This document shows, in pieces, positions 2,388 through 22,878 of a stretch of DNA of 22,878 nt. The notes below the pieces were generated by a model. The model was not told where the DNA came from. It worked only from the letters and a program-made list of their open reading frames with translations, and did no database searches. The position numbers were made by a program, and so were the translations under genes. Within the stretch, counting starts at the first letter, position 1, and each line of letters opens with the position of its first letter. Source of the DNA: a virus; IMG/VR virus record IMGVR_UViG_3300009507_000136, positions 1-22,878 of that record, one strand, 5' to 3'.

Positions 2388-3125
2388 ATGACCGTTAATA
2401 CTGATTTGTATGACCGTCAAATAGACCATGCGGCGATGACTCGTTTGTTTGAAGAAAATGTTCAAACAGACACTAAAAGAATCATCAGGCGTCACAGAAA
2501 ACGTTTACGTAGCTTACTGGGCGGTTCCGAAAGGGCCGCATTTGAAGAGGTAAGCACAGGAGAGGTTCGTAGATTTACTAAAGAACTCGACCTCTCTCTT
2601 AGTAACAACATGAAAGATTATGGTATTACAGAATTAGATTTTAGCACTAACAACCTAGCTAAGTCAGTTGGGGTCTATGCAAACATTAGACGCCCACGCG
2701 CAACGGCTGTGTTAGAAGAAATTGTTGGGGCTAACATCCGAGGAGAAGGAAATCTAAGCAGACGTATTCAAGCATTAGGCGCAGGTCAGCTTACCCGTAT
2801 ACAAACAAAATTAAAAGCGGGTATAGCGGTTGGTGCAACTAACGAATCAATAGTGAAAGATATTGTTAGAACCACACGCCTAACTGAAGCACAAGCAAGT
2901 GCTTTAGTACGCACTGCAGTTACAAGAACCCAAACAACATCCCAGTTAGCCGCTCTTAAAGAGAACAGAGCTATCATTAAGGGAGTTCGGTTCACTGCAG
3001 TATTGGATAGTCGTACAAGTGCAATCTGCGCTCACCACGACGGCAAGGTTTATGACCTTGATGACGGACGCTTCACTCCCCCACTACATTGGCGTTGCCG
3101 ATCAACTTTGGTCCCGGTCGTCAAA
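2388..3125 (+). other. MuF/SPP1-gp7 domain within the fusion protein
   Basis: This is the N-terminal domain of the fusion (roughly residues 1-246). The region before the motif block contains helical segments and repeated Thr/Arg/Ala runs typical of MuF proteins, then the conserved core: Asp207, Arg209-Thr210, Cys214, His216-His217, and the closing His234-Trp235-Arg236-Cys237-Arg238. The paired Cys/His residues could bind metal. In SPP1, gp7 binds the portal and affects DNA ejection, so this domain is the likely capsid-targeting module for the attached polymerase (inference). Confidence 0.85.
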
Positions 3126-6100
3126 TCCCACAGTGAGCTTTTAGAAAGTACTTCTCCGGATGTAAAAAAGACAGTCTTAAAAGGACTAACAGCAAATAAA
3201 ATCGCTACCCTAAGCGGTTCTGTTGCCCCTCGTGAAAACTATGGGCAATGGTTGAAAAGACAACCTAGACAAGTCAAGGTTAGACACTTTCAGGGAGATG
3301 TGCAGAAAGTAGATCTCTTTGATAATGGTCAATTGCCCTTGGAGAGCTTTGTTACAGCAAGTGGAAAGCCGCTCTCTTTGACGGCCCTTAGACGTTTGGA
3401 TAATAAAAATACAAACACTACTCCTGTCAGGCAAAAAGTTTTAAGCTCAAAAACAGTTAGTGCGTTAGAAGTTAACGCGGCACGACCTAGTACTATTTTG
3501 CGAAACAAAAAAGTTGAGGAGCAACTTAGAACGTTTTATCGTGCAGAAGCGGCTAACTCTAATGCCATTCTCTCTGTAGTAGACTTTCGAGGAACAAGTA
3601 TTCCGGGAAAAAGAGCTAGTCGCAGAAGAGCTAATAATCAATTTGATGAGAGAAACACGGGTGTTGACCCCCTTACTGGTGAAATGAAATCTACTTTAGT
3701 TTACAACCCCGATTTCAAAGTATACCAAGAGAGAATTGACTTCCTTGACAACTCTAAATTACTTAAATCCGACGAAAAGCAATGGATTAAAAACTTCGTT
3801 CAGTCACTAGAGAACGACGGTTTGTCTGTTAACCAGCAATCTGCTGTGTTAGAAAATTTACGTATTGTTTTTGAAAGATACGCTAAAGACAAAAAACCAT
3901 GGGAAAACTTTGCGGCGGTACTCAGAGCAGAATCTAAAAACTCCGTAGTTAACATATCTAGAATTTTAGATAGACGATCTAGAGCAAGATCCCAATTCTT
4001 CCGTTTCGGACCAGATGGTGAACGTGCTCAAATTCAAATTATGGGAGAATGGACCTACTTTGATGATATTACTAAACGTGCTTTAACTAACCAAAGGTTT
4101 GTAGACAGCTGGTCGGTAAGTGAAGGATTAGATTTAGCAAGAACACTTTATTCAAAAGGTCGTTCTCCGCTAAAAACCTATTTTCCTAAACCTCCTTCTT
4201 TCATACCTAAAATACCTAGTGTTAGAAAAAGCATTTTAAAAGAAATTGAATCATTACCTTTTGGTAAGGCTTTTGTAAAGCGATACCAAGGCAAACCTTC
4301 TGACGGAGCCATATCTGAGTTTCTTAGAAGTGGTAATGAAAGAAAAAGAAGATTTCTAGATCTTGATTGGTACTACACCAAGAAAAAAGATGACTTTTTA
4401 CAAAACCAATTAACACCTAAGTATTTACAAAAGCGTGTAAAGCTAATGTCAGAAATTATGGCGGATGTAGCTACTGGGCAATCTACTGACTATGACGCTT
4501 TATCTATTACTATAGGTAAGAAAATATTTGAAGCTGAAAAAAGTGACTTTGAGATATTCTTTAAAGCACCTACTATTAAAAACTACCATGAGGTAGGCTC
4601 TAATATTTTGCAGGGATTAAAAGAACAAGGAAAGATTAAAGTTGGACTCAGAGGCGTTACTAGGCGTGGTGTAGTTGACTTGGATTCGGGCCGTTCGGCA
4701 ATGGGTTCATTTGCAGACACTATTTCTAGAGAGGTTGAAATTATAGATCCAAAGATGTTAGCATTACAACGAGCTAATCGTGAACTTATTTATTCTCGTA
4801 GAATGGGTATTGTAAACGAAAGAGACAGGTTGTATGTAAGAGCAGGACAAAAGAAGTTTTATGATTCTCGTGGAAGAAAAACTACTGAATCTATTATTAC
4901 TAGAAAAGCATCTGCTAACTATGATCAAGACCTTATTGACAAAGATTTTGCTGATATGTTAAATCACGTCATGGATGCTGAATGGGAAATCGACCAAGAC
5001 TTTGCTGGATTTTTTGATGATCTTGCACACTTTAGAGACCCTAGAGGTAACGTAAAGAAATTTGATGAGCTTAACGGCTTTAGAAAAATTATTATACAGC
5101 GTGGTGAGATGGGCGCTGGAATGCTACAATCTATTAGGTGGCACAGACAAAACAAATCAACATGGCGCAATTGGGCGCAAATCGATGGTAGAGGCCGTGT
5201 CTATACCCAAGGTTATTTGCATCCTGCAGGCGGTGAATTTGTTCGTCCATTCCTTAATACAGCAGTAGCAAAAGAAATTAACGAAGAAGTTTTAGAAGAA
5301 TTACGTATTCAATTAGGTACTCTTGTTGGTGAAGCATTTAGCGTTTTAACTAATGAAGGCCGCTTAAGATCTTTCCGTGCTAATGAAAAGGCATTTTTAG
5401 AACTCGGTGAGCTTATGCTTTCTCAAACACAAAGGCCCCGTAGAATACGAGACTTCTTACAGCACCCTTTGGTTCAGGAAATTGAACCTGAAGAATTACC
5501 AAAGCTTGCTAGGTTTGCATTAGAATACGCCCGTATACACAAGCATGTAGACGGTGACTTCACTAATGTAAAGCAACTTCGAACTTACAAAACTAAACTA
5601 GGTAATGAAAACGATGCATCGGCATCAGGAGCACAACTTATTGCTTTGTCAACACGAGACCGTGCGCTCGCAGAAGCAAGCAATGTTGTAGCTACTAGCC
5701 GTAAAAATCGTTTATATGACTTAGTTGCAGAGAGAACTGCATCTGACCCTCGATTCCAAAAATTAGGACTCGACCTCGAATTCGGAGACTTAGCGAAAGG
5801 CGCAAAAGGGCAATCGATGGTCGCATTCTACGGTGCGGGGCAAGTGACTCAGGCGGCTTCCTTAGAAGGGAAGTTATCAAAAGCTCTCAGCAAAAAAGGA
5901 TATACAGTTATTACTAAAAGTGAGTTAGCGTCTTGGAATAGAGACATTGATGTTTCAATTAAACGCGCAGAGCGTGACAATGCTTTATCTATGGTTGCAA
6001 GCTTACGTGAACTTAAAAAAGATGTAAATAACTCAATTAACAACAGTTCTCCAATCGGTAATCGTCTAATGGCGCAAGTCAAAGATGTTCACCCGGACTC

Positions 6101-6815
6101 AGAACTATTTGTTTCAAAACTGACCAACGTTAGAGGCGGCATTGTTGGCCCTGCTCAATTTAAAGAAGTAGCAGAAATCATGTCAGGTCACCTTAAAGAT
6201 ATTGCTCCTATTACAGAGAGTTTTGTATCTTATTGGAAAGACGTTGCGAGAACCTTCATCGAAGAATCCGGACAGGTAGATATACCTTGGGTTACTATGG
6301 ATGGTAAGGTTCTGTTTCAGAGGTACCGTCCTATTGTTCAGGAAAGGATAAGTTTTATTGACCCTGTAACAGGAAGGCGAGTATCAAACATCTATGAGGA
6401 CTCAATAACAGATTCTAAATTTATTGGAAGACAATCTATTATTGGCGCTCGTAGTGGTTTGGGAGTAAACGGTAATCATATGAATGATGCCACTATCGTA
6501 AGATGGTTCCATCTCTGGGGGAGGAAGAACGGTGTTCAGACTTCAACAATCCACGATGGCTTCTTTACGAATCTAGCTGACTCAACTCGGGCTAAATTTC
6601 AATTACGACGAATTTATGCTCGTGCAGTAGAAGGTGAAACACTCTTAAACACCCTCAAAGAAATGAGGAAAAGAGGACTCTCAGAGGAGTCATACCGTAA
6701 GCTTATAGCAAGAGCTAAGGCTGAAGGATTACTAAACCCCAAAGATGGCATAACTGCCAAAGAGATCAATGCCCCTATCCCGGAAGGGTGGGACTTTTAC
6801 GGTATTGGACCCTAA
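2388..6815 (+). CDS. MuF/SPP1-gp7 head protein fused to single-subunit (T7/N4-type) RNA polymerase
   Basis: A 1475-residue protein, ATG 8 bases after a strong AAGGAGG site. Residues about 60-245 form a MuF/SPP1 gp7-type head-morphogenesis domain: AVLDSRTSAIC (204-214), HHDGKVY (216-222) and PPLHWRCRS (231-239), the family's D-x-R-T-S-x-x-C...H-W-x-C-R-S pattern. Ordinary members end soon after this. Residues about 250-890 are unrecognised, basic and mostly helical. Residues about 900-1430 carry the hallmarks of single-subunit DNA-dependent RNA polymerases: DGRGRVY at 933-939; motif A DASASG with catalytic Asp1076 (T7 D537); motif B Lys1140 to Tyr1148-Gly1149, with the exact T7 K631-Y639 spacing; P-W-x-T-x-x-G...Q-x-Y at 1300-1313; NGNH at 1361-1364; motif C IHDGFF with Asp1390 (T7 D812). 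The DNA is continuous in frame, with no frameshift. Inferred role: an RNA polymerase packaged at the portal and injected with the DNA. Cleavage between the two parts is possible and cannot be seen here. Confidence 0.9.
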   Translation: MTVNTDLYDRQIDHAAMTRLFEENVQTDTKRIIRRHRKRLRSLLGGSERAAFEEVSTGEVRRFTKELDLSLSNNMKDYGITELDFSTNNLAKSVGVYANIRRPRATAVLEEIVGANIRGEGNLSRRIQALGAGQLTRIQTKLKAGIAVGATNESIVKDIVRTTRLTEAQASALVRTAVTRTQTTSQLAALKENRAIIKGVRFTAVLDSRTSAICAHHDGKVYDLDDGRFTPPLHWRCRSTLVPVVKSHSELLESTSPDVKKTVLKGLTANKIATLSGSVAPRENYGQWLKRQPRQVKVRHFQGDVQKVDLFDNGQLPLESFVTASGKPLSLTALRRLDNKNTNTTPVRQKVLSSKTVSALEVNAARPSTILRNKKVEEQLRTFYRAEAANSNAILSVVDFRGTSIPGKRASRRRANNQFDERNTGVDPLTGEMKSTLVYNPDFKVYQERIDFLDNSKLLKSDEKQWIKNFVQSLENDGLSVNQQSAVLENLRIVFERYAKDKKPWENFAAVLRAESKNSVVNISRILDRRSRARSQFFRFGPDGERAQIQIMGEWTYFDDITKRALTNQRFVDSWSVSEGLDLARTLYSKGRSPLKTYFPKPPSFIPKIPSVRKSILKEIESLPFGKAFVKRYQGKPSDGAISEFLRSGNERKRRFLDLDWYYTKKKDDFLQNQLTPKYLQKRVKLMSEIMADVATGQSTDYDALSITIGKKIFEAEKSDFEIFFKAPTIKNYHEVGSNILQGLKEQGKIKVGLRGVTRRGVVDLDSGRSAMGSFADTISREVEIIDPKMLALQRANRELIYSRRMGIVNERDRLYVRAGQKKFYDSRGRKTTESIITRKASANYDQDLIDKDFADMLNHVMDAEWEIDQDFAGFFDDLAHFRDPRGNVKKFDELNGFRKIIIQRGEMGAGMLQSIRWHRQNKSTWRNWAQIDGRGRVYTQGYLHPAGGEFVRPFLNTAVAKEINEEVLEELRIQLGTLVGEAFSVLTNEGRLRSFRANEKAFLELGELMLSQTQRPRRIRDFLQHPLVQEIEPEELPKLARFALEYARIHKHVDGDFTNVKQLRTYKTKLGNENDASASGAQLIALSTRDRALAEASNVVATSRKNRLYDLVAERTASDPRFQKLGLDLEFGDLAKGAKGQSMVAFYGAGQVTQAASLEGKLSKALSKKGYTVITKSELASWNRDIDVSIKRAERDNALSMVASLRELKKDVNNSINNSSPIGNRLMAQVKDVHPDSELFVSKLTNVRGGIVGPAQFKEVAEIMSGHLKDIAPITESFVSYWKDVARTFIEESGQVDIPWVTMDGKVLFQRYRPIVQERISFIDPVTGRRVSNIYEDSITDSKFIGRQSIIGARSGLGVNGNHMNDATIVRWFHLWGRKNGVQTSTIHDGFFTNLADSTRAKFQLRRIYARAVEGETLLNTLKEMRKRGLSEESYRKLIARAKAEGLLNPKDGITAKEINAPIPEGWDFYGIGP
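5088..6680 (+). other. Single-subunit RNA polymerase catalytic region within the fusion protein
   Basis: Approximate bounds of the part with recognisable polymerase motifs (residues about 901-1431). Order and identity of motifs follow the T7/N4 family: DxxGR (D933...R937), motif A Asp1076, motif B Lys1140/Tyr1148/Gly1149, a Q-x-Y strand near 1313, NGNH near 1364, motif C His1389-Asp1390. Spacing differs from T7: A to B is 64 residues against 94, and B to C is 250 against 181, so the fingers are rearranged, as also seen in diverged virion polymerases. The basic residue usually found four positions before the motif B lysine (Arg627 in T7) is Ala1136 here, with Lys1137 one position later. A bacterial-type multisubunit polymerase or an RNA-dependent polymerase is not supported. 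Confidence 0.88.
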
Positions 6816-6860: not shown

Positions 6861-6873
6861 TGGGCTGTGCCCA
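6861..6873. other. Second hairpin with 5-bp stem and 3-base loop (TGGGC-TGT-GCCCA)
   Basis: A second perfect 5-bp stem with a 3-base loop, 19 bases after the first. It ends on the first base of the AGGAG ribosome binding site (6873-6877) of the scaffold gene, so it could also influence translation of that gene. No T-run follows. Both hairpins carry G at the loop centre on the + strand. Confidence 0.5.
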
Positions 6874-6887
6874 GGAGAAAACATACT

Positions 6888-7547
6888 ATGGAAAATGAAA
6901 ATAACGTTGAACTTAATGAAGCTAATGAAAACGGTTCAGACATGAGCACATCAGACGAAATCAGTAAAATGGTTGAAGCTCGTGTCATGGAAGAGCTTTC
7001 CGGAATCAAAGAGAAGCTTAACTCTGCTTACTCTGCTCGTGACGAAGCTGTTAAAAAGGCTGTAGCTTACGAAGAAGAGCGCAAGCAGTTAACTATTAAG
7101 CAACTCGAAGAAGAAGGCAAGCACAAAGAAGCCGCTGACATCAAACTAACTGAATTGTCTGCACGTTTAAACGAGCGTGAGAAGCAAATTACTGAGCTTA
7201 CTCGTGATTCTGTTGTACGTGATGCACTTCGTGGTTTGGACTTCCGTAACGATACTGCGGCTGATTTCGCATATCGTGATGTTGTCTCGCAATTAACTCA
7301 AGACGAGAATGGTCAGTGGGTACACCGCACTGGCGCTTCCATTAAGGACTTTGTTGATTCATTCCGTAAGGATGATGATAAAGAGTTTTTGTTTAGACCT
7401 AAGCAATCAGCAGGCGTTGGCGCACAAGGCGTTCAAACCCCTACTGGCGGCTTCGATGCAACTAAACCACTCTCAGAAATGACCACAGATGAAATAATGG
7501 CGGCGGCCGCTGCTGGACATCTCGGCTCTAACGAGAAGTGGATCTAA
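6888..7547 (+). CDS. Capsid scaffolding protein
   Basis: A 219-residue acidic, glutamate- and lysine-rich protein immediately before the major capsid gene, the standard place of a phage scaffold. I chose the ATG at 6888, placed 10 bases after AGGAG; an in-frame GTG at 6867 lies inside the hairpin and has no good binding site. Residues about 25-110 are a long predicted coiled coil (E/K/A/L heptads, with EERKQLTIKQLEEEGKHKEA at its core), followed by a less charged region and a C-terminal helix region after a Gly/Gln-rich linker (AGVGAQGVQTPTGG). Scaffolds guide coat assembly into the prohead and then leave; C-terminal helices normally contact the coat. No protease domain is fused and no prohead protease is in the window. 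Similar to DUF4355-type scaffold proteins by character; family membership not verified. Confidence 0.8.
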   Translation: MENENNVELNEANENGSDMSTSDEISKMVEARVMEELSGIKEKLNSAYSARDEAVKKAVAYEEERKQLTIKQLEEEGKHKEAADIKLTELSARLNEREKQITELTRDSVVRDALRGLDFRNDTAADFAYRDVVSQLTQDENGQWVHRTGASIKDFVDSFRKDDDKEFLFRPKQSAGVGAQGVQTPTGGFDATKPLSEMTTDEIMAAAAAGHLGSNEKWI

Positions 7548-7600: not shown

Positions 7601-8788
7601 ATGGCTATCTCTTCAAGTGCTTTTGGCACTCTTAATAAGGCAATCTCTGCTTACACGGACGAAATGTACACTCGTGCTAAGAAAATTGCTGGTACTGCGT
7701 TGGTAGGTACTGACGCTCAAATCACTCCTAACGGCGAAGACTTCATCGGTCAAGTTCGTTTCTACAAGCCTCTCGGCAACTACGCTGTTGGCGCAACTGG
7801 CGCTTCTAGCCCAGACGTTACTGGTTCTGCAAACGCAGTCGTTAACGTTGCTACTCAGACTGAAGACTACGGTCGTACTACTAACATCAGCACTGAAGTT
7901 CAGACTTACATTAAGACTGTCCGAACTCACGGCGCTAACGAGTACATGGTTCAGAGCGTAATCTCTGGACAAGACGGCCTTTCTAAGATCGCTCGTGACT
8001 TCTCTGAAACTCGTGCAGAAGACGAAGATCAAGCCCTTCGCGCTTGTCTTGCTGGTGTTATGAACGCTGAGCTTAAGGTTGCTAACGACCTAGCTGGTAC
8101 TACTTACAGCGAGATGTTTGCTGGTAACGCTGTTGACGGTGACTCTGCAAAAGCTTTTGCTTACGTTGCGGCTTCTTCTGACACTGTTGGCACTGGTTCT
8201 TCACTTGAGTCTTTGACTGACCTTTCTCAGTCTAGCCCAGGTCGTCGTGTTGAGCACATCATCCGCGCTATGGGTGCATACGCTGACTACACTCCTGACT
8301 TCGTATACCTCGTAGTTTCTCCTGAGACTTACCTCGACATCCGCGTTGCCAACTTGGTTGACGACGAGCGTGTAACTGACGGAAACATCTCTTTCGAAAC
8401 TCTTTTGGGTGGCGTTGTTCGCGTTATCGTTTCACGTAACTTCGGTCTTGGCCTTGGTGCTCAAACTCACGCAGGTCTCTCTGGAACTACTGAAATCAGC
8501 ACTGCTAAGGTTTCTTACATGATGTTGCCTTCTTCAGTCTTCATGAGCAATGTTAACGTTCCTAACCCCGTTGCTGTTGACCGTAACGAAAACGTAGGCA
8601 TGGGTACTGGTCGTACTACTGCTTGGTACCGTTGGGGATACGTTATGCACCCACGCGGCTACAGCTTCGCTGGAACTCAGACTGCATTCGCTACTAACGC
8701 GTCTCTCACTGGTTCTGCGGCTACTCCTGCATGGGAGCGTAAAGCTGACATCCTTAACCTCGGCATCTTGCCTATCTTCCACGCTTAA
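7601..8788 (+). CDS. Major capsid protein
   Basis: A 395-residue protein directly after the scaffold, with a weak AAGGA site at 7591-7595. Length, position, Ala/Gly/Thr/Val-rich composition and absence of hydrophobic membrane segments fit an HK97-fold coat protein. The segment RRVEHIIRAMGAYADYTPDF and the following V-Y-L-V-V-S-P-E-T-Y strand look like a coat A-domain helix-strand unit, but I do not recognise the exact family. Codon use is sharply different from the neighbours: almost only CGT/CGC for Arg, AAC, TAC, TTC and GAC preferred, few TTA or AGA, which is expected for a very highly translated gene. This marks it, with the major tail protein, as one of the two most abundant products. 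Confidence 0.88.
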   Translation: MAISSSAFGTLNKAISAYTDEMYTRAKKIAGTALVGTDAQITPNGEDFIGQVRFYKPLGNYAVGATGASSPDVTGSANAVVNVATQTEDYGRTTNISTEVQTYIKTVRTHGANEYMVQSVISGQDGLSKIARDFSETRAEDEDQALRACLAGVMNAELKVANDLAGTTYSEMFAGNAVDGDSAKAFAYVAASSDTVGTGSSLESLTDLSQSSPGRRVEHIIRAMGAYADYTPDFVYLVVSPETYLDIRVANLVDDERVTDGNISFETLLGGVVRVIVSRNFGLGLGAQTHAGLSGTTEISTAKVSYMMLPSSVFMSNVNVPNPVAVDRNENVGMGTGRTTAWYRWGYVMHPRGYSFAGTQTAFATNASLTGSAATPAWERKADILNLGILPIFHA

Positions 8789-11004: not shown

Positions 11005-11304
11005 ATGAAGCAATTCGTAGGTAAATTATTAACTCGTGAAGTCCCATTTATGGACGATAAAGTAGACATTAAAGTTTTAACAGTTGGCGATATTCGTCAG
11101 ATCGAAGCTAAGACTAAAGAAGTCCAAAAGAAGGCCGGTAAGGCTGGTGATCTCGACCAACTAGAAATCCTCCGTTTCGTTTTGCGTTTAGCTGTTGTTG
11201 GCGCAGAAGACATGTCTGATGAAGACTTTGACGGCTTCCCCGTAACTGAACTTACTAACCTTTCAGAAGCGATTGTAGGTACAGCACCTGCGGGAAACGC
11301 ATAG
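11005..11304 (+). CDS. Tail assembly chaperone, short form (lambda gpG-like)
   Basis: A 99-residue protein, ATG about 8 bases after AAGGA (10992-10996). It has the layout of lambda-type G chaperones: N-terminal beta segment (F-V-G-K-L-L-T-R-E-V...V-D-I-K-V-L-T-V-G-D), then helices containing LEILRFVLRLAVVGAEDMSD, and a proline-containing end F-P-V-T-E-L-T-N-L-S-E-A-I. These proteins coat the tape measure during tail assembly and are absent from virions. The last sense codons contain the slippery heptamer G GGA AAC (11292-11298), two codons before the TAG stop, allowing a share of ribosomes to produce the longer fusion. Position directly upstream of the tape-measure region supports the call. 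Confidence 0.85.
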   Translation: MKQFVGKLLTREVPFMDDKVDIKVLTVGDIRQIEAKTKEVQKKAGKAGDLDQLEILRFVLRLAVVGAEDMSDEDFDGFPVTELTNLSEAIVGTAPAGNA

Positions 11305-12106: not shown

Positions 12107-15100
12107 ATGGCTGTAGAAATTGAAGTCAAGAGTAATAGTCGTCAGGCACAAGCGGATTTAGCCCGTCTTAACAAGTCTGTCGATAATATTTCTCGTACTA
12201 CAGATCGAGTTACTAAACAATTCGATAACCTTGTTAAAGTGTCAATTGCTACGTTTGCTGTCATTGGAAGCACTAGAGCTATAACTAATATTACGGATTC
12301 ATATCGAAGACTTGAGGCTCGAATCGCGCTTGCCACCGATGGCATAGAAAAACAGGCAGTTGCATTTAAACGATTAAACCAAATTGCAATTCGTACTCGT
12401 TCAAATCAAGAATCTCTTGCAGACTTATATTCTCGAATTGGTCGCGCTACAAAAGAAATGGGCGTAGAACAAGAGACTGTTATACAAGTAACAGAAAATA
12501 TCGCTAAGGCGATTACTATTTCAGGGTCCTCTGCTGTATCTGCCAATGCGGCAATTGTTCAGCTGGGCCAGGGCTTAGCCGCTGGCGCACTTAGAGGGCA
12601 AGAATTAAACTCAGTAATGGAACAAACCCCAGCTGTAGCACAAGCTATCGCTCGTGGTTTAGGGATTACTATTGGTGAGTTACGAGCTTTTGCTAACGAA
12701 GGTAAGCTTTCAGCAGAAGCTGTTATTACTGCATTAAAGGATCAAGGGGATGCAATTGATCAGGAATTTAAAAAGGTTGCCCCTACCTTAGAACAATCAC
12801 TTACCGTATTAGGTACTGGTATTGGTCGTGTTGTAAATGAGTTTGACAAGATTACTGGATTTAGCGGATTTATTACTCAAGCCTTCTTAGACATCGGTGC
12901 ATCACTAAACTCTTTTGCTCCGAGTTTAGAAAGTTTAATTGAGGGTCTTACAGAAGGTAACTTTTACACTGATTTGCTAGGTCGTATTTTCCAAAATACA
13001 GGAAGAGTAGTTGTATCTATTGGAAACTTAATTGCGGCCGTATTTGACAGGCTAATTCCTACTAGTCTCTTAATTCGAATTGAAAGATTAAGAGCAGAAC
13101 TCTTTGTAGCTTTCATTAGAGGCGCAGGAGGGTTCTTTAGAGCATTTTCTAACGTTGAAATGGCACTACTTAAAGCTTCTTTAGCTATTGATGAATTAAC
13201 AGCTAAAACTAAGCGTTCTATTTTCTCTAGGTTTGCTCGTAGCTTCGCGCAAGACTCTTCTAGGTTGCTAGGCGACTTTACCATTTTAACTGCAAGTCTT
13301 TCAGAAGGCTTACAAATTCTAGAAACAAGAGCAGTAACCTTTTTGGCAAATGGGGCTTTGCCTGTTATTTCTGGATTAAAACAATTTCGTAATGCACTAT
13401 TACGAATTAGAGTTGAAATCAAAGAAATACCAGAAGCGCTTCAAGACGTAACAGATGGCTTTGCGGCTTTTAGCGGAATGATCCTTGAATCGTTCAAGAG
13501 ACTTAGAAACTCAGGTTTCCTAATTGGTTCTGTAATACAACAAATTAAAAATTCAAGTGAAATAAAAGATGTTGTTAATGATATTAGATCGAGCTTAGTT
13601 GGTGTAGCAGGCGACTTAAAAGATTTTCCTGACGTTGTTCAAACTGCTTTTTCTCAAGCTTTTGACAGAATGAAGTCTTTTGCAAGACAGTCTAAAGATA
13701 TACTACAATCCTCATTTAGGGAAGCTTTTGAAAATATCACAAATAACCCCGCTCAGGGAGTTGTTAACCCTGGCATACTACTTGCTCCTCTTATTCAAGC
13801 AATAACTGGTCTAGATATTAACGAAAGACAGGTTATTCAGAAATTTGATGAAATTAAAGAAGCCTTTGTTGACATGACATCCGGTATGCAAAAAGGTGCT
13901 AGTTTTATAAAGCAGACTTTTATTGACATTTACAATTACACTGTAAACGGCGTAAGAAAAGTAATTGACACTATTAAAAACTTTCGATATGGAGCAGAAA
14001 AAGAGTTTTATGATTTATACATAGAGCTTGTTGGTAACTCTATTTGGCCTGATACAATTGACGGAATCGTTCAATACACTAAAAAATTGTTTGATGCTAG
14101 CGATCTTGTAGCGCGTTTTTCAAATTTAGTTCAAGGGTCATTTAGGGTCTTAAAAAATTCCTCTAAAGATATTTCAGACTTTTTTGGAGCTATTTTAAAT
14201 TTTGCTACACTAAACCTAGCAGTTGCAGGACTGCTTAGAATAAACCCCCTAATGGCGGGTTTAGTTTCTATCGTTAGTATTGGCCTTGCGGTATTTGATG
14301 CGTTTGGATTATCTATCGACAAAATTGAAAACGGGTCAAACCGGTTATCTGCGGCTATTAGGCAAAATCTACAAGATTTTAAACTACTAGAAACGATACC
14401 TAATATTACAGCAGGTATTGCAGGCGGATTAATTGAGTTAGGCGCTTTTGACGCGCTAGAAAACTTAGGAAGACTAGCTATTTCGGTCATTAAACCTATT
14501 GCAGCAGTTATAGAGGGCATTTTCGGAGACGCTATTGCAGGCGGTATTGCTATTGCACTCTCTGCTATTCGCTTTGGTATTGTAGGCCCGATTGCAATTA
14601 TTGCGGGTCTTCTTTCTGATAGTATTGTAGGAAGCATTAATGCGGCGTTAAGCATTGTAGGGACAGACATGTTAAGCGTGTTTAGCACCCTTGCTAATAA
14701 TGCAGGTGAACTTCTTTCTAAAGCTTTACAAGCTGTAGCTTTAAATGCCATACCTATTTTACTTACTGTAGGCGAAGCCTTTGTAGAAGGATTTACAAAA
14801 TCAATCCCTATTGTAGGAGATGCCTTATTTAAGTTATTTAGCATTATTGATAACCTTACTTTTGGTGTGGGAAGTATTGTAGGCGGTTACATACTTTTCG
14901 CTACTATATTCGGAAAGCTAGGACCTAAAGGTATATTAGCACTAGTTACAAGCACCTATGCTCTGTTAGATAAAATAACATTAGCTTTTGCATTAAAGCA
15001 AGTTAACGTAGGAAAAGGTGCCGGTGTATTCTCTAATATATTTTTTGGCAAAGATGGAAAAGGCGGATTCCTTGCAGGTATCTCTAGCGCCCTTGGTGGT

Positions 15101-18100
15101 GCAGAAGGGCCAATTGCAAAGTACGCTTTGTTTGTAAGAAGCGCATTATCTACTGCGTTTAGTGGTTCTGTGTTAACTGCAACTTTCCTAGGCCCAATTA
15201 GAACATTGTTTACAGCTACTGTACCTACTTTATTTGCTAAAGTAAAAAGCCAAGTTGTAGGAATATTTGCTACCGGTGGTTTATTTGACGCTTCTTTATT
15301 TGGCGGAAAAGGCGGTTTTGCTAGCGTATTAGCTAAGTTTAACGTTGGTCTTAAAACAGCAGAAACAGCGGCAGGAGCTTCAAGTGCAAGAGCCCAAAGG
15401 CGTGCAGGAAGAGGCGGCTTGTTAGGCAAGGTCTTGATAGGCGCGGCGTTATTTGGCGCATCAACCGGCGCATTCGCTTCTGATATCAGTGATGGTATTG
15501 AAAGCGCTACCATAGATGCTCCTTGGTATAGCGGTTTGCTGAAATATGCAGATGTAGGTCTTTTAGGATTGACACTATTTGGCCCTCAACTATTAAGCGG
15601 ATTTTCTTCTATGTTAGCAACAGCCGCAACAGCTATTGCGTCATTTGTCATGGCTAACCCATTAACAGCGGCAATAGCGATAGGTACTGCGGCAGTCGTG
15701 GTTGGTGGAAGTATTCTTGCTAACTACCTTTTTGGAGCTAACGGTGAATTTTTCACCCTTAGAGACCAAGCAGGCTCACAATTAAACGACATGTTTAACG
15801 GGGTTCAAGCAATGGCAGAGTCTCGTAGAGGCTTGTTGTCTGAAATGTTTGGAGATCTTAACGATTTTAACCCGCAAGCCTTAAGAGGTAGTAGGGCATT
15901 TGGATCTTCTAGTCAAAGCGGTGAAAACGATTTGTTTGGAAATTCAGTAAATGAGTTAATCAAAAACAGCGCTGTTACAGCATCTCAGCTTACTGAGCTT
16001 AGACGCGTTGCTAGAGAAACTAAGAAACTTCAAACGGACCTTAACAAAACAAACTCTAGGTTTGGTAAAACAAGCGTCCAATCTAAAGATTTGCTAAAGC
16101 AAATTTCTTCTTTAGAGAAGCAAGCTGTTGGCTTGTTAAAACAAAACGTTGAACAACAAAGGCAACAAGCGCAGGACAATATCGGTGCGGCGTCAGAGAG
16201 AGAAACCGATAGAGGCTTGTTTAGTTTCATTGGTGACCTTACTTCATCTATCGGTGGTGTAATTGGTAATCTTTCTGTTCAAGAAGGTGCTGATTTTGAA
16301 GCAGACCTTTCAGACAACGCTATTGGTTTGTTTAGGGAGCTAAATGATCTAGCAAAGCTTAACGGTGGAACGCAAGATGAATTTAATTCCGTATTAAATG
16401 AGTTAGTAGCCGAGCGTAAAAGCCTACAACTAGGCATTACAGGTCTATTCAGTACTAGCCAAAACAATGATCTTGCTATAAACGAAAAAGAGTTAGCGGC
16501 GGCTATTGGCCAAGAAATTGCAAGACTTCAAGGAATTGAAGGAGCAAACTTAAGGCTTGATGCCCTAGACAGTGTTAATCGATCTACTGGAAATAGCTTT
16601 GGTGTTCAAAACATCCTTAAGCTAGACGATGCTAACCTCGCATCATTAGATGGGTTAACTCAGCAACTGACTGGAGTTACTAATCGGTTAGAAACACGCG
16701 GACTTGATACTGACGAAAGGGCAAAACTTGAGTTAGATAAAGCAGAGATTATTTCTTCGCTTAACACTATCTTAGGCTCTACTGATTTGTCTTTTGATAC
16801 ATTTTCTAAAAACTTAAGTAAAGCTGGAGCAGATGCATTTGATAGACAATTATTCGATTCTATTAAAGCCCCTGATTTATCAACTCTTCGCAACGAACTA
16901 GTTAGTATTGAAGCTTTAAGTTCTGAAGTAACTGCTTTAAGCGGAACAGATCCACAGCGAGAAGCTTACTTAAATGCATTAATAGAAGAAAGAGTTTTAA
17001 ATATAAACGAGATAGCCCAAGGCTACCGTGATAAATTAATTCCTTTTCAAGCTCTCTTAAACAATGCAGGTGTTACTTCACTTCAACAAGACAGATTGTC
17101 TCTTGATAATCAAAAGCGAATTGCAGACTCTCAACGTATTATTGAAGGTTTGCAAGCCCGTAGAAACACAGTTGACCGTGATAATCTTGGATTACAGCAA
17201 GACATTACCCGTGAAATTGAAGAGCAAGAAGACGTTATTGAACGCATTCAAAACACTGTACTTACGCTAGGAGATACGCTAGCTCAATCAGGGCTTAATA
17301 CCTTACAAGTTGGTAACTTAGATGATTCTAGCCTAGAAACTGTTCGACAAGCAGTAATGGACAGACTAGAGGCGTCCTATGAGCTTCAAAATAATGAAGA
17401 CTTAACATTAGAGTCAGCGAAAGCGTATTACGCTACGTTACTGGCGGCAGAAGCTACTTTGCGTAGAACTGCTCGTGAAACTAGAACCCTTGCAGATTCA
17501 TTAGGTGAAATACCAAATATTACTGCGTTAAGTAATGAGCAAATATTGCAACAACAAAATCTTAACAACGAAATATTTGATATTAACGAAAACATCCGAA
17601 ATGGGGTTTATGAAACTAATGAAGAATATACTGAAGCAGTTAAGCGTTTGCGCGAAGTTGAAGGCCAACAGGGAAGACTAAACTCTGCAATTGAAAGAGG
17701 CAAAGATTTTGCTAAAGGTCTACGTGCTGACTTTGAATCTACTGTATCAGGTATTCTCAAGGGCACTAACGATGTAGGTGATCTTTTTGATACCATACTA
17801 GGACGAATAGCTACTACTTCTATTGACAATGTAGCTAGTCAGCTTGCTGATTTATTGTTTAGTAAAGACAACAGTGGTTTAGAAGACTTCTTTGGTAGCA
17901 TGTTTGGAAATGCAGAAACTGAAGGCGAAAATATGTTTTCTAAACTAGCTAGCTTTGCATCAAATGCACTTACTCCTGTTATTGATGGTTTATTCGGCGA
18001 CGGTGCTTTATCTGGCATTGGTGATTTCTTTGGAGGCTTGTTTGGCTCCTCAGATGACAAGCCAGATGGTACAGAGAATAATCCTCTTTCAGTAAGAATT

Positions 18101-18895
18101 GCAAAAGCAGTTCAGGGAGTTAGCGATGCGGGTTTACCCGGGTTACCAGATTTCCTTGGTAGTGCTGAAGACCAAGAGTTTCTTGACACAGAAGCTACTG
18201 ACTTTGGCGACCCTTTAGGGGCTACGGGCGATTCGGAAGGCGGAGAACAAGGTAAAGCCACTATTGGCTTAACTATGTTTACAGACAAGCTTAAAGAAGG
18301 AGTTGCGGGCTTAGGGGGCTGGGTTAGTCAAACTGCTACTAATATTTTGCAATTTTTAGGATTGGCAACAGCTACTACTACTCAAACTACTAGTTCAGCT
18401 ACTGCGGCAGTAACCGCAACTTCGCTTAGTCTTGCAATGAATGTGGCAACGGGTGCGGCTGCTGCTTTGGCGTCGGCTATGCTCGCGGCGGCGGCGACGG
18501 CGGCAATCCCGGGGTTTTCTACCGGCGGTGCTATTAGTGGTCCCGGTACTGGAACCTCAGACAGCATTTTAGCGCGGTTGTCTAATGGCGAGTACGTCAT
18601 TAATGCGGCTTCTACTAGGAAGTATAGACCCATAATTGAAGCGATTAACAACGGCGATTTCACCTTACCAGCCTATGCTGATGGTGGGGTTGTAGCTTCA
18701 GATGTTTTAAACGGCACTAGCGTTGTAAGTAAGGCGGTTGCTTCAAATAATGCTAAAAGATCAGGTGGATCCCAGCAAAACATTTCTATTAATGTTACGG
18801 GAGATATCTCTCGACAAACTAAGAAAGAAATATTTGGGATGTTGCCTACGATAGCAACAGGTGTTAATCAATATAATAGTGAACAAGGAAGGTAA
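12107..18895 (+). CDS. Tape measure protein
   Basis: A 2262-residue protein with ribosome binding site TAGGAG (12093-12098). It sets tail length, is assembled inside the tube and leaves at infection. Residues about 50-245 match the tape-measure N-terminal domain (ANAAIVQLGQGLAAGALRGQ, then E-L-N-S-V-M-E-Q-T-P and A-x-G-L-G-I-T-x-G-E-L-R). The middle has several hydrophobic stretches (about residues 692-730, 800-850 and 1170-1210) that may insert in the host membrane, and coiled coils near 1294-1361 and 1676-1719. The C-terminus carries the common closing module: F-S-T-G-G-A-I-S-G-P-G-T-G-T-S-D-S-I, then RLSNGEYVINA (about 2137-2165). No lytic transglycosylase, M23 or NlpC/P60 domain was recognised. 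At the lambda rule of about 0.15 nm per residue the tail would be near 340 nm, an estimate. Confidence 0.93.
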   Translation: MAVEIEVKSNSRQAQADLARLNKSVDNISRTTDRVTKQFDNLVKVSIATFAVIGSTRAITNITDSYRRLEARIALATDGIEKQAVAFKRLNQIAIRTRSNQESLADLYSRIGRATKEMGVEQETVIQVTENIAKAITISGSSAVSANAAIVQLGQGLAAGALRGQELNSVMEQTPAVAQAIARGLGITIGELRAFANEGKLSAEAVITALKDQGDAIDQEFKKVAPTLEQSLTVLGTGIGRVVNEFDKITGFSGFITQAFLDIGASLNSFAPSLESLIEGLTEGNFYTDLLGRIFQNTGRVVVSIGNLIAAVFDRLIPTSLLIRIERLRAELFVAFIRGAGGFFRAFSNVEMALLKASLAIDELTAKTKRSIFSRFARSFAQDSSRLLGDFTILTASLSEGLQILETRAVTFLANGALPVISGLKQFRNALLRIRVEIKEIPEALQDVTDGFAAFSGMILESFKRLRNSGFLIGSVIQQIKNSSEIKDVVNDIRSSLVGVAGDLKDFPDVVQTAFSQAFDRMKSFARQSKDILQSSFREAFENITNNPAQGVVNPGILLAPLIQAITGLDINERQVIQKFDEIKEAFVDMTSGMQKGASFIKQTFIDIYNYTVNGVRKVIDTIKNFRYGAEKEFYDLYIELVGNSIWPDTIDGIVQYTKKLFDASDLVARFSNLVQGSFRVLKNSSKDISDFFGAILNFATLNLAVAGLLRINPLMAGLVSIVSIGLAVFDAFGLSIDKIENGSNRLSAAIRQNLQDFKLLETIPNITAGIAGGLIELGAFDALENLGRLAISVIKPIAAVIEGIFGDAIAGGIAIALSAIRFGIVGPIAIIAGLLSDSIVGSINAALSIVGTDMLSVFSTLANNAGELLSKALQAVALNAIPILLTVGEAFVEGFTKSIPIVGDALFKLFSIIDNLTFGVGSIVGGYILFATIFGKLGPKGILALVTSTYALLDKITLAFALKQVNVGKGAGVFSNIFFGKDGKGGFLAGISSALGGAEGPIAKYALFVRSALSTAFSGSVLTATFLGPIRTLFTATVPTLFAKVKSQVVGIFATGGLFDASLFGGKGGFASVLAKFNVGLKTAETAAGASSARAQRRAGRGGLLGKVLIGAALFGASTGAFASDISDGIESATIDAPWYSGLLKYADVGLLGLTLFGPQLLSGFSSMLATAATAIASFVMANPLTAAIAIGTAAVVVGGSILANYLFGANGEFFTLRDQAGSQLNDMFNGVQAMAESRRGLLSEMFGDLNDFNPQALRGSRAFGSSSQSGENDLFGNSVNELIKNSAVTASQLTELRRVARETKKLQTDLNKTNSRFGKTSVQSKDLLKQISSLEKQAVGLLKQNVEQQRQQAQDNIGAASERETDRGLFSFIGDLTSSIGGVIGNLSVQEGADFEADLSDNAIGLFRELNDLAKLNGGTQDEFNSVLNELVAERKSLQLGITGLFSTSQNNDLAINEKELAAAIGQEIARLQGIEGANLRLDALDSVNRSTGNSFGVQNILKLDDANLASLDGLTQQLTGVTNRLETRGLDTDERAKLELDKAEIISSLNTILGSTDLSFDTFSKNLSKAGADAFDRQLFDSIKAPDLSTLRNELVSIEALSSEVTALSGTDPQREAYLNALIEERVLNINEIAQGYRDKLIPFQALLNNAGVTSLQQDRLSLDNQKRIADSQRIIEGLQARRNTVDRDNLGLQQDITREIEEQEDVIERIQNTVLTLGDTLAQSGLNTLQVGNLDDSSLETVRQAVMDRLEASYELQNNEDLTLESAKAYYATLLAAEATLRRTARETRTLADSLGEIPNITALSNEQILQQQNLNNEIFDINENIRNGVYETNEEYTEAVKRLREVEGQQGRLNSAIERGKDFAKGLRADFESTVSGILKGTNDVGDLFDTILGRIATTSIDNVASQLADLLFSKDNSGLEDFFGSMFGNAETEGENMFSKLASFASNALTPVIDGLFGDGALSGIGDFFGGLFGSSDDKPDGTENNPLSVRIAKAVQGVSDAGLPGLPDFLGSAEDQEFLDTEATDFGDPLGATGDSEGGEQGKATIGLTMFTDKLKEGVAGLGGWVSQTATNILQFLGLATATTTQTTSSATAAVTATSLSLAMNVATGAAAALASAMLAAAATAAIPGFSTGGAISGPGTGTSDSILARLSNGEYVINAASTRKYRPIIEAINNGDFTLPAYADGGVVASDVLNGTSVVSKAVASNNAKRSGGSQQNISINVTGDISRQTKKEIFGMLPTIATGVNQYNSEQGR

Positions 18896-19504: not shown

Positions 19505-20056
19505 ATGAAAAATACTCCTGCATCTATTACAAGCGCGTTAGGACAAGACGTTCTTCGCCCTTACTTAATACTTGACATGGAGTTTACTACGGGTACGGTT
19601 AGGCTTACCAATCTTGCTTATGATATTACTGTAGATAGTAATGTTTATTTATCTGACGGGGGGTTAACAGAGTTTTCCCCTCCTCAGTTAACATCCGTGT
19701 TAGATAGGGAAGTATACCGTATTAAACTAGTAGACCATGGCAACACTTATAAAAATTATTTTGAAAGCGGGGTCTTAGGGACACCTGTTACAGTAAGATT
19801 AGGAATTGAAGGTAATCTTACAGATTTTGATATTCTCTATAAAGGGCGCATCGATGCGACTTTTATTGAAACAGAATCAAGCGAATATACAAAACACGCT
19901 ATTATAGAATGTTCTTCTCCTTTTGGAGCACTAGATAGAACTACTGATAGGCGTACAGAAAAAAATACTCAAAGGCAAATTAATTCATCTGATTCTGCTT
20001 TTGATAGAATTTATAACAGTGCAGATGAAATTACATTAAAATGGGGTAAGAAATAA
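19505..20056 (+). CDS. Minor tail protein / tail-tip hub component (DUF2163-like)
   Basis: A 183-residue protein that begins one base after the previous stop and shares one base with the next gene (TAATG), so translation is likely coupled. The beta-rich first 130 residues (Y-L-I-L-D-M-E-F...V-R-L-T-N-L, then Y-L-S-D-G-G-L, then E-V-Y-R-I-K-L-V-D and a G-R-I-D-A-T-F strand) and the ending R-T-T-D-R-R-T...Q-R-Q-I-N-S-S-D-S-A-F-D-R-I are typical of DUF2163-like phage tail proteins located between the tape measure and the J-type tip protein. The final D-x-A-F-D-R-I motif is common in this group. It probably forms part of the hub below the tube. Family assignment is from motif memory, not a search. 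Confidence 0.65.
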   Translation: MKNTPASITSALGQDVLRPYLILDMEFTTGTVRLTNLAYDITVDSNVYLSDGGLTEFSPPQLTSVLDREVYRIKLVDHGNTYKNYFESGVLGTPVTVRLGIEGNLTDFDILYKGRIDATFIETESSEYTKHAIIECSSPFGALDRTTDRRTEKNTQRQINSSDSAFDRIYNSADEITLKWGKK

Positions 20057-22878
20057 TGGCTCTTTTTACAGCAATTGTTGCAATTGTGTCAATTACCTTC
20101 TCTTATACCCAAGCAAGAAAAGCAAAGAAAAGAGCGGCTAGAGAAGCTGAGAAAAGAAAAGGCTTTGAATTAAGCGTTGCGGGAGATGCTCGTTCTTTAC
20201 CTATTGTTTACGGACGCTCTGTTGTAGGTTCTACATTAGCAAACCTAACAGTAAGACATGATTACACTCACGTAGGTGCAGGTACAGATCAAGTTTCTTG
20301 GGTTAACGGATTAAGCAATAGTAAAAATCCTAAAAAGTCAAGAAATGAATTTTTAGTTGCACAATATGCAATTTGCCAAGGTGGCATTAATGCAGTAAAG
20401 TTTATAGAAGTAAACGACCTTGATTACTTAGATGCAGAATTTTCTAAAGATAACAAAGGTGGACACTATCTAGTAACTGATGTAGAGGGTGGCGCTACAA
20501 TGGGCGTTGCTACTTCTAACGGTTTGCCCTCTTCTTCTGTATTTACAGATTGTGCTTATGCCTCGGGGGCTTTTTATTTAAACAGAGACGATCCTCAATA
20601 TTACGATGTTCCTGAACTTAGATTTTATGTAGAAGGTAAAAAGGTTCCTACTGTAACAGAAAGCAACGGTGTTTATTCTTATGACAGGAATAGCGGCACT
20701 AAACTGTATACAACGAACCCTGCTTGGATTCTCTTAGATTACATGACTGCTTCTTACGGGGCAGGATTGTCGCCTAATGACTTAAACCTTGAATCTTTTT
20801 ATAACGCCGCTCAAATATGCGGAGAAGGGGTAAACACTGCTTTAGGGATGGGGCCTGTTAAACGCCAAGGTAAAGTATGGGAAAGTAGTAGATATGGTTA
20901 TTCTGCTAATCACACTTCAGGCACTAGCTATATAAACACAGGTGGGCCAATAGGGAGTAGTGCAGGTAGCATTAACTACTCAATTGAAGGCGAAACGGGA
21001 ACTTATTATTCTTTCCAAGGAAATGATGTTTATTATGATAGCGCTACTGGCGAGTACAGAGTAAACGACGAAGACATTAGTACTAACGGACCTGGGCCAG
21101 ACATGAGCTCTAGCACAGACTTGCCTGTTGGCTCAGTAAGTGCTTTTTGGGTAAGTGAAACAACTAATACTTTAGGACTTCCCCGTTATGAGTGTAACAT
21201 TACTCTTGACCCTTCTGCCCCTGTTAGAGAAAACATTGATGACATTTTGTTTACAATGGGTAATGCAGATTTGGTTTACTCTGAGGGCCAATACAAGCTT
21301 AACCTAAGCTATGCGGCTGACCAGACAGAGCTTTCTAATTCTGTAGCTCTTACTGTTACAGATGACATTTTACGTTCTACAGAAGTTAAAATAACTTACC
21401 CAAGCGCTCAAAGTCGTTTAAATCAATGTACAGTTAGGTATTCTAATGAACAAGATAACTTCGGGTCGGCCTCTGTAACGTGGCCCCCTACTGGTTCTTC
21501 TATTCATAATACTTATTTACAAGAAGATCAAAGTGTAATATTAAACACAAGCTTATCTGCGGAAGGGATTTCTGACCCTTACCACGCTACTGCTAGGGCA
21601 GAACAAACAGTTCGAGAATCTAGAAGAGCTACTATCTACGAGTTTGAATTATTTTCAGAAGGGTACTCATTAGAACCCGGCGATCACATTAATTTTAACA
21701 GTGTGGTAAACGATTTAAACAATTCGGATGATATTGCTATTGTTCGTTCAGTTAGTCTTACTGAAAACATGACTGTAAAGATTGAAGCAGTTAAAGTTCA
21801 TTCTGGAGATTTAGCTTGGAACGTTGCAGATACAGAACTTAGCTCATACCCCGCAGTTACTAACTTCGTTAACCCTACTCCTGTGTTAACAGACGCGGTT
21901 ATTGCAACTGCTGATTTAACTGACGAAACTGTTTACGGGTATCACATTAATGAGCAAGACGGACACATCTTTCTAAGATGGGAAGAAGTAGACGCTTCTT
22001 TGTTTGAAAGCTATGAACTACAAGTCCAGTTAGGTGGTACTACTGAAACCACTTGGGAAACTGTTTCTTTTACTCAAAATGAAACTTTTACTTTTGTTCC
22101 TGGAAACCCTACAGACCAAGTATATTTCCGTTTGCGTACTCTATCACAAAACAGTCGTAAATCAAGCTTCTCCAATGTTCTTGGTGGACTCTCTATTGAG
22201 TTTACTGGCGCTAAAGGAGAAACAGGAGATAAAGGAACTATTGGCGACAAGGGTACTATTGGTAACAAAGGTCAAGACGGTGTTAAAGGTGACACTGGGC
22301 TTAAAGGTGAACAAGGGCTTAAAGGACAAGTTGGTGACGCTGGAGATAAAGGTTCTGTTGGTGAAAAAGGAAACCAAGGAACTAAAGGACAAACAGGCGA
22401 TCAAGGTCAAAAAGGAGAACTTGGAGATAAGGGTACTAAAGGTCTAGAAGGACCCCAAGGCGCACAAGGTGAAGTAGGCGCGAAGGGTGTACAAGGTCTC
22501 CAAGGACAAGCCGGATTACAAGGAGAAGCCGGTGATCAGGGCGCTAAAGGTCAACAAGGTGCACAAGGTCAGCAAGGTATCAAAGGTACTGTTGGTGATC
22601 AAGGTACTAAAGGCCAGCAAGGCTCACAAGGCGCTAAAGGTATTACTGGTGACCAAGGTTCTAAAGGTACTACTGGTACTAAGGGTCTAACCGGATTACA
22701 AGGCCCCCAAGGCGACCAAGGTGAAACCGGCGCTAAGGGTATCCAAGGCTTACAAGGCTTACAAGGTAATCAAGGTACTAAAGGTGAAACCGGTGCACAA
22801 GGCACTAAAGGCTTAACTGGATTGCAAGGGGATCAAGGTTCTAAAGGAGAAGTCGGTGCACAAGGCACTAAAGGCTTA
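20056..22878 (+). CDS. J-like tail-tip / host-specificity protein with collagen-like fibre, 3' end outside window
   Basis: The frame is open from the ATG at 20056 to the right edge (941 codons, no stop), so the gene is incomplete. The ATG overlaps the upstream TAA. Residues 2-17 are hydrophobic and followed by a basic run (K-A-K-K-R-A-A-R-E-A-E-K-R-K), as in many J-type proteins. The J-like core shows L-P-I-V-Y-G-R-S-V-V-G at 50-60 and N-P-A-W-I-L-L-D-Y-M-T at 221-231, both hallmarks of the lambda J/central tail-tip family. Residues about 610-715 look like a fibronectin type III domain (I-F-L-R-W-E-E-V...Y-E-L-Q-V...Y-F-R-L-R-T). From residue 718 on, uninterrupted Gly-X-Y collagen-like repeats run to the edge. 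Expected role: hub plus central trimeric fibre that contacts the host receptor. A receptor-binding head probably lies beyond the window. Confidence 0.88.
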   Translation, partial: MALFTAIVAIVSITFSYTQARKAKKRAAREAEKRKGFELSVAGDARSLPIVYGRSVVGSTLANLTVRHDYTHVGAGTDQVSWVNGLSNSKNPKKSRNEFLVAQYAICQGGINAVKFIEVNDLDYLDAEFSKDNKGGHYLVTDVEGGATMGVATSNGLPSSSVFTDCAYASGAFYLNRDDPQYYDVPELRFYVEGKKVPTVTESNGVYSYDRNSGTKLYTTNPAWILLDYMTASYGAGLSPNDLNLESFYNAAQICGEGVNTALGMGPVKRQGKVWESSRYGYSANHTSGTSYINTGGPIGSSAGSINYSIEGETGTYYSFQGNDVYYDSATGEYRVNDEDISTNGPGPDMSSSTDLPVGSVSAFWVSETTNTLGLPRYECNITLDPSAPVRENIDDILFTMGNADLVYSEGQYKLNLSYAADQTELSNSVALTVTDDILRSTEVKITYPSAQSRLNQCTVRYSNEQDNFGSASVTWPPTGSSIHNTYLQEDQSVILNTSLSAEGISDPYHATARAEQTVRESRRATIYEFELFSEGYSLEPGDHINFNSVVNDLNNSDDIAIVRSVSLTENMTVKIEAVKVHSGDLAWNVADTELSSYPAVTNFVNPTPVLTDAVIATADLTDETVYGYHINEQDGHIFLRWEEVDASLFESYELQVQLGGTTETTWETVSFTQNETFTFVPGNPTDQVYFRLRTLSQNSRKSSFSNVLGGLSIEFTGAKGETGDKGTIGDKGTIGNKGQDGVKGDTGLKGEQGLKGQVGDAGDKGSVGEKGNQGTKGQTGDQGQKGELGDKGTKGLEGPQGAQGEVGAKGVQGLQGQAGLQGEAGDQGAKGQQGAQGQQGIKGTVGDQGTKGQQGSQGAKGITGDQGSKGTTGTKGLTGLQGPQGDQGETGAKGIQGLQGLQGNQGTKGETGAQGTKGLTGLQGDQGSKGEVGAQGTKGL
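22207..22878 (+). repeat. Collagen-like Gly-X-Y coding repeat (at least 74 triplets)
   Basis: Every third codon encodes Gly for 224 codons with no break, giving a 9-base DNA periodicity. X and Y are rich in Lys, Gln, Asp, Glu and Thr, with triplets such as GTK, GDQ, GLQ, GAQ and GET repeating; Pro is rare (two seen), unlike animal collagen. An exact 24-base copy occurs at 22792-22815 and 22855-22878, 63 bases apart, showing a higher-order unit of 21 residues near the right edge. Bacterial and phage collagen-like regions form triple-helical stalks without hydroxyproline. Confidence 0.95.

Follow-up and report, generated by a model that had tools for sequence, protein, structure and literature searches.

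A MuF-type head protein fused to a T7-type RNA polymerase, a probable virion RNA polymerase in a family of long-tailed phages

Virion RNA polymerases are known from few groups of phages (N4-like phages, phiKZ-like jumbo phages and P23-45), each with its own solution for delivery. The promoters read in N4 are hairpins in single-stranded DNA. N4 gp50 is a single-subunit virion polymerase of about 3,500 aa with unrelated flanking domains, carried by a podovirus that also has a second RNA polymerase; in a survey of phage effectors, N4-type virion polymerases were found only in N4-like phages (PMC5512222). In the long-tailed phage P23-45 the virion polymerase (gp96) is fused to a structural protein, a second polymerase (the non-virion gp64) is free, and a special motif lies upstream of the pre-early genes, including that of the second polymerase (PMC10770324). 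MuF proteins are carriers of another kind. They have an N-terminal MuF domain, are encoded after the portal gene and bear C-terminal enzymatic domains (PMC5576092, PMC5512222). The cargos described are toxins, ADP-ribosyltransferases, RNases and RelA-like domains, and MuF toxins occur in temperate phages; in a survey of 1515 muf genes toxin cargos are described and RNA polymerase is absent from the description (PMC5576092). Few copies of SPP1 gp7 are brought into the procapsid by the portal, and the protein improves infection (PMC6316719).

Here we describe a phage gene, termed MuF-RNAP, in which an N-terminal MuF/SPP1-gp7 head domain and a C-terminal T7-type single-subunit RNA polymerase are joined in one frame. 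It comes closest to the virion polymerase that P23-45 carries on its tape measure, with which it shares the fusion to a structural protein, the long tail, the second free polymerase and the special upstream motif. However, the P23-45 enzyme is a two-barrel polymerase of the cellular type on the tail tape measure, whereas a T7-type right-hand polymerase is found here on a MuF protein, and the second polymerase of the MuF-RNAP phages is T7-like. The principle is known from P23-45; the polymerase type, the carrier protein and the phage family differ. Compared with T7 and mitochondrial RNA polymerases, MuF-RNAP has the complete fold with DxxGR and motifs A, B and C, but differs by its virion gene position and by an N-terminal extension of about 550 residues that contains the MuF domain. 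In the literature searched, which did not include the Naomviridae description (Curr Biol 2021), no account of a MuF-polymerase fusion was found, in agreement with the initial annotation, which knew of no characterised example. We propose, with a probability of about 0.8, that MuF-RNAP is a virion RNA polymerase which is delivered by a head protein and reads early promoters to make a second polymerase, RNAP2.

The window, that is the whole stretch of DNA analysed, comprises 22,878 nucleotides of an IMG/VR virus record. MuF-RNAP lies on its plus strand at 2388-6815 and encodes 1475 aa in a single frame that is open from end to end. Residues 1-420 (2388-3647) form the head-morphogenesis part, a helical N-terminus followed by the MuF domain (PHROG 241, E=3e-53). 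The Pfam Phage_Mu_F core, DxRTS..C..HH...PPLHWRCRS, occupies residues 137-241 (2796-3110) and scores 54.6 bits against a cut-off of 29.6 (PF04233, E=2.2e-14). Towards the C-terminus, PF00940 matches residues 1060-1436 above its cut-off (E=1e-5) and the RNA polymerase family PHROG 414 matches residues 914-1183 (E=9e-23); the N4-like PHROG reaches E=1.5e-4. T7 RNA polymerase chains in the PDB are found with E=4e-4 by the single sequence and 1.7e-5 by the family profile. The catalytic motifs are D933GRGR (5184-5198; DxxGR, D421-R425 of T7), the motif A aspartate D1076 (5613-5615; T7 D537), which is the Asp of NDASASG aligned with DGSCSG of T7, motif B with K1140...F-Y1148-G1149 (5805-5834; T7 K631...Y639-G640) and motif C with H1389-D1390 in IHDGFF (6552-6557; T7 H811-D812). 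The protein ends only 85 residues past the motif C aspartate, which leaves no room for the C-terminal region of N4, where a zincin-like metallopeptidase domain comes after the polymerase. The motif residues given in the initial annotation are correct, and its central claim, a MuF head domain fused to a full single-subunit RNA polymerase, is borne out by the open frame, Pfam, PHROG and the AlphaFold fold alike.

AlphaFold models based on the family alignment were obtained for residues 2-430 (pLDDT 82) and 276-1475 (pLDDT 80). Foldseek matches of the polymerase model reach E-values down to 7e-20. It superimposes on T7 RNA polymerase with Z=30.5 (529 residues, 3.8 A, about 16% identity over the fold) and on the mitochondrial polymerases Rpo41 of yeast (Z about 27) and human POLRMT (Z about 26), as compared to Z about 18 for the N4 mini-vRNAP and 17.4 for N4 RNAP II. 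As modelled, the enzyme is closer to T7 and mitochondrial polymerases than to the N4 vRNAP, so that of the label T7/N4-type given to it at the outset the first half stands and the second fits less well. The structural match begins near residue 557; the predicted enzyme therefore includes a T7-like N-terminal region and measures about 920 aa (residues about 557-1475, 4056-6812 on the plus strand, aligned to T7 residues about 35-883). The palm and the complete fold anticipated by the initial annotation are predicted, but its start at residue 880 and its length of about 600 aa have to be corrected. With the whole right-hand fold predicted and DxxGR and motifs A, B and C all present, the polymerase part is of the T7 type. 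In BFVD the model of the MuF part finds minor capsid and head morphogenesis proteins of phages; against the PDB it gave no significant match.

The surroundings of the gene are those of a structural operon, all on the plus strand. The portal protein (216-1886; PHROG 145, E=2e-56; DUF4055), to which a MuF protein would be expected to dock, is followed by two small ORFs, MuF-RNAP, the scaffolding protein (6867-7547; PHROG 206, E=4e-13), the major capsid protein (7601-8788; PHROG 247, E=1e-23), a tail tape-measure protein of 2262 aa (12107-18895; many PHROG tape-measure families, best E=1.5e-73) and distal tail and tail tip genes. The head protein in a siphovirus of the initial annotation is supported: the gene lies in the structural operon close behind the portal, in a long-tailed phage. 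By its domain, gene position and fold, the window protein belongs with the MuF/SPP1 gp7-like head proteins. MuF toxins combine a toxin domain with a small immunity ORF; in the window the ORF after MuF-RNAP is the scaffold and the cargo of the MuF protein is the polymerase itself. Since the protein has a MuF domain and its gene stands after the portal and before scaffold and capsid, it may be carried in the manner of SPP1 gp7. One of the small ORFs in the gap between portal and MuF-RNAP (1870-2127) encodes an AT-hook-like KKRGRPAKSK (Pfam under cut-off), and the tail gene at the window's end (20056-22878) contains long collagen-like Gly-X-Y repeats. DSS3_VP1, a cultured relative introduced below, has a tRNA-Asn gene between portal and MuF-RNAP (21063-21138), and DSS3_PM1 likewise; no tRNA was found in the 22.9-kb window.

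Among 50,697 phage records, the polymerase part was matched only in DSS3_VP1, DSS3_PM1 and EBPR siphovirus 1 (four records with a duplicate), none of which annotates a polymerase at this gene. The isolates DSS3_VP1 and DSS3_PM1, Naomviridae roseophages, encode full-length orthologues with 45% identity (1463 aa in DSS3_VP1) annotated as 'minor head protein-like protein', and we found no description of this protein as a polymerase. The portal-to-tape-measure order of DSS3_VP1 is the same as in the window. MuF-RNAP belongs to a large, mostly aquatic family of bacterial viruses that is represented in many metagenomes and by two cultured phages. A search of 84,980 prokaryote genomes gave one match, the 74-kb MAG contig C53, whose protein has 28% identity to that of DSS3_VP1 along most of the sequence. 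This sole match also carries RNAP2, and a prophage gene was rejected; with just one match in so many genomes, the phages look lytic, and MuF-RNAP is apparently a gene of lytic phages. RNAP2 is a separate, free T7-like polymerase of 732 aa in DSS3_VP1 and DSS3_PM1, with relatives in C53 and in four other large IMG/VR records that have MuF-RNAP. In three IMG/VR contigs (G022, G038 and G050) about 700 bp interrupt the RNAP2 gene at residues 264-270, and the upstream piece contains a stop; these interruptions are probably introns.

A promoter-like motif upstream of RNAP2 became apparent when intergenic regions of DSS3_VP1, DSS3_PM1 and two complete-looking contigs (G001 and G002) were compared: all four share AAAAAGTGAGAAAAnTnAnGYATCTATAATG. 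In DSS3_VP1 the transcripts predicted from it would start at 35.8 and 36.25 kb. When 2.9 million viral contigs were scanned for exact matches to the 25-bp pattern GTGAGAAAA-N5-GYATCTATAAT, 110 stretches contained it, as compared to none for the reversed pattern of equal composition. RNAP2 is present in 43 of the 50 longest carriers, MuF-RNAP in 25 and at least one of the two in 49; both polymerases are encoded in all 12 carriers of 55 kb or more, the shorter ones being fragments. In the 58 stretches that show motif and RNAP2 together, every one of the 86 sites lies upstream of RNAP2 on the same strand, at a distance of 0.8-7.2 kb (median 2.6 kb). C53 has a different, triplicated motif, GGTATCTTATATG, in the same place. 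The shared motif upstream of RNAP2 is family-specific and a predicted promoter. In imperfect sites ATCTATA is nearly constant; of the two bases that follow, the A is replaced only by G and the T only by C, with the caution that the search pattern fixed the core positions, so that invariance of the core is partly built in.

Promoters of the T7 family have an initiator of C-TATA followed by a purine start. The geometry of the early motif, with CTATA and a purine at the predicted start, fits this pattern. Of 85 dereplicated sites, 37 carry an inverted repeat of 6 bp or more whose first base is at most three bases from the final T and in nearly all cases is this T, one base after the predicted start; shuffled sites gave 0.7 on average and at most 5. 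About 40% of the sites are without a stem of at least 4 bp there. The stems vary in sequence (TGATAC/GTATCA, TGATATA/TATATCA, TGATAAA/TTTATCA, TAGAAGA/TCTTCTA). We read the repeat as a putative 5' stem-loop of the early transcript, in which case transcription must start right after CTATA.

Because the CTATAAT box resembles a bacterial -10 element, the host RNA polymerase could also read this motif. MuF-RNAP might then be delivered all the same and have its targets elsewhere, the early genes being served by sigma-70 promoters with TATAAT. We consider this unlikely. A -35 hexamer is missing at 16-18 bp, the spacing at which GTGAGAAAA is conserved is foreign to sigma-70, and the motif is nearly confined to records of the MuF-RNAP phage family. 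Moreover, the last A and the T of TATAAT vary and ATCTATA hardly does. Finally, the repeat begins at the T7-type start, and sigma-70 initiation some 7 nt further on would truncate the stem. Reading of the motif by a delivered MuF-RNAP is the interpretation we prefer.

A second class of motifs comes after RNAP2 and ahead of structural operons. About 14 sites of the form TAGGKTRCGTTAAAGA-GGG occur in DSS3_VP1, every one on the coding strand; those at 19203, 19238 and 19327 stand directly ahead of portal and MuF-RNAP. In G001 and G002 the late motif is CCAGGGGACGCTAAAGAGAG, with a one-base variant immediately after RNAP2. These sites resemble T3-type promoters and would be natural sites for RNAP2. 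In DSS3_VP1 (2243-59197; L082, L085), many late sites have a G-rich/C-rich inverted repeat behind them, which suggests that late transcripts, like early ones, may carry 5' stem-loops. In the clade of the window the late motif was looked for and not found. As the 22.9-kb window ends before RNAP2 and the early promoter, the circuit proposed for this genome is drawn from its relatives. Contig G043 overlaps the window from the ORF at 11005 to that at 20056 with 56-76% identity (33% in the tape-measure gene), as compared to about 27-45% for DSS3_VP1 and G001. It carries two early sites (24731 and 25051) and then RNAP2 (27336-29537), and three contigs tied to it by shared genes (G040, G041 and G058) have the same layout. 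The circuit of two polymerases and predicted early promoter is thus present in the close relatives of the window.

Computation on sequence and structure shows that the fusion exists and is conserved, that fold and active site are intact, that there are genomes with two polymerases, and where two classes of promoter-like motifs lie; packaging, ejection, catalytic activity and the pairing of each polymerase with its motif are inferred. Late in infection, the MuF part would bind the portal and bring few copies of the polymerase into the procapsid. At the next infection MuF-RNAP would be ejected together with the DNA and pass down the long tail, probably in unfolded form. In the new cell it would transcribe from the early promoter class (A-tract, GTGAGAAAA, GYATC-TATA, purine start), which would drive the gene block holding RNAP2. 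RNAP2 in turn would read the T3-like promoters before middle and late genes, among them the structural operon with the MuF-RNAP gene itself. It is possible that MuF-RNAP also pulls DNA into the cell. The early-transcription role put forward in the initial annotation is strongly, if indirectly, supported by the genomes with two polymerases and by an early promoter specific to the family. We also think it likely that a host-independent early cascade, consisting of a MuF-delivered polymerase, its own double-stranded promoters, RNAP2 and late promoters, operates in this widespread long-tailed lineage.

The polymerase might instead be active inside the producing cell, for example in late transcription or as an aid to DNA packaging at the portal, and never be delivered. 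Its gene does sit in the late structural operon, and MuF proteins work at the portal during assembly. But late transcription is already served by RNAP2, a family-specific early promoter upstream of RNAP2 requires a reader from the start, and SPP1 gp7 aids the start of infection, not assembly. A role confined to the producing cell is accordingly quite improbable.

The conservation of the fusion bears on the remaining alternatives. An IMG/VR search gave 132 stretches encoding MuF-RNAP relatives, of which 80 were kept; removal of near-duplicates left 37 full-length sequences, the window and 36 others with 41-75% identity to it. Throughout these the fusion is kept in one frame of about 1460-1490 aa, two sequences having longer C-terminal extensions, and the conserved MuF motif is retained. 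The D and the RGR of DxRGR, D1076, K1140, Y1148-G1149 and H1389-D1390 are invariant; among the residues that had been singled out beforehand only G934 varies, being Ser in some homologues. It is highly improbable that the polymerase domain is decayed or repurposed, for example as a DNA-binding plug that makes no RNA: its similarity to T7 is low (about 16% over the fold), but even in homologues with 41% identity no catalytic residue has changed, the Tyr-Gly of motif B included, and the predicted fold is complete. An assembly chimera or a frameshift artefact can be dismissed, as dozens of independent contigs and two phage isolates all have the full-length fusion.

If a delivered MuF-RNAP reads the early promoters, a further independent route to a virion polymerase would exist, and among MuF fusions this would be the first with a cargo that drives expression of the phage's own genes. 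A common head protein, elsewhere a loader of toxins, appears to have been turned into the carrier of a T7-type polymerase. The system would supply a new polymerase-promoter pair, and it opens the question of how an enzyme of about 165 kDa passes along a long tail. It makes concrete predictions, namely the MuF-RNAP protein in virions and an early promoter that can be put to the test in vitro.

Several homologues have unusual gene structures. Three divergent ones (L071, L074 and L076) are longer, at about 1840-1980 aa, with several hundred additional residues towards the C-terminus; an intein or intron was considered for L071 and L076 and rejected, the extra length being mainly C-terminal extension. 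In EBPR siphovirus 1 the polymerase part is split by a likely group I intron (L083:23179-23405; RF00028, E=6e-8, under the gathering score), with an HNH endonuclease ORF adjoining. In two IMG/VR relatives (G051 and G039) the gene is broken beside motif B, after residues 1142-1148. The 127-bp terminal repeats of DSS3_VP1 and DSS3_PM1 lie at differing genome positions and look like assembly overlaps, and no direction of DNA entry was drawn from them.

Deoxyuridine phages such as PBS2/AR9 and phiR1-37 use phage-encoded virion polymerases. The DNA of DSS3_VP1 and DSS3_PM1 also carries deoxyuridine (PMC12697855). Gene 64 of DSS3_VP1 was considered as a dTMP phosphatase and gave no Pfam match. Homologues of the dCMP/dCTP deaminase of DSS3_VP1 are found in 12 of 16 related records (G040, G041, G058, G001, G002 and others). 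Such deaminases are common in phages, and deoxyuridine DNA as an explanation for the virion polymerase is only suggestive.
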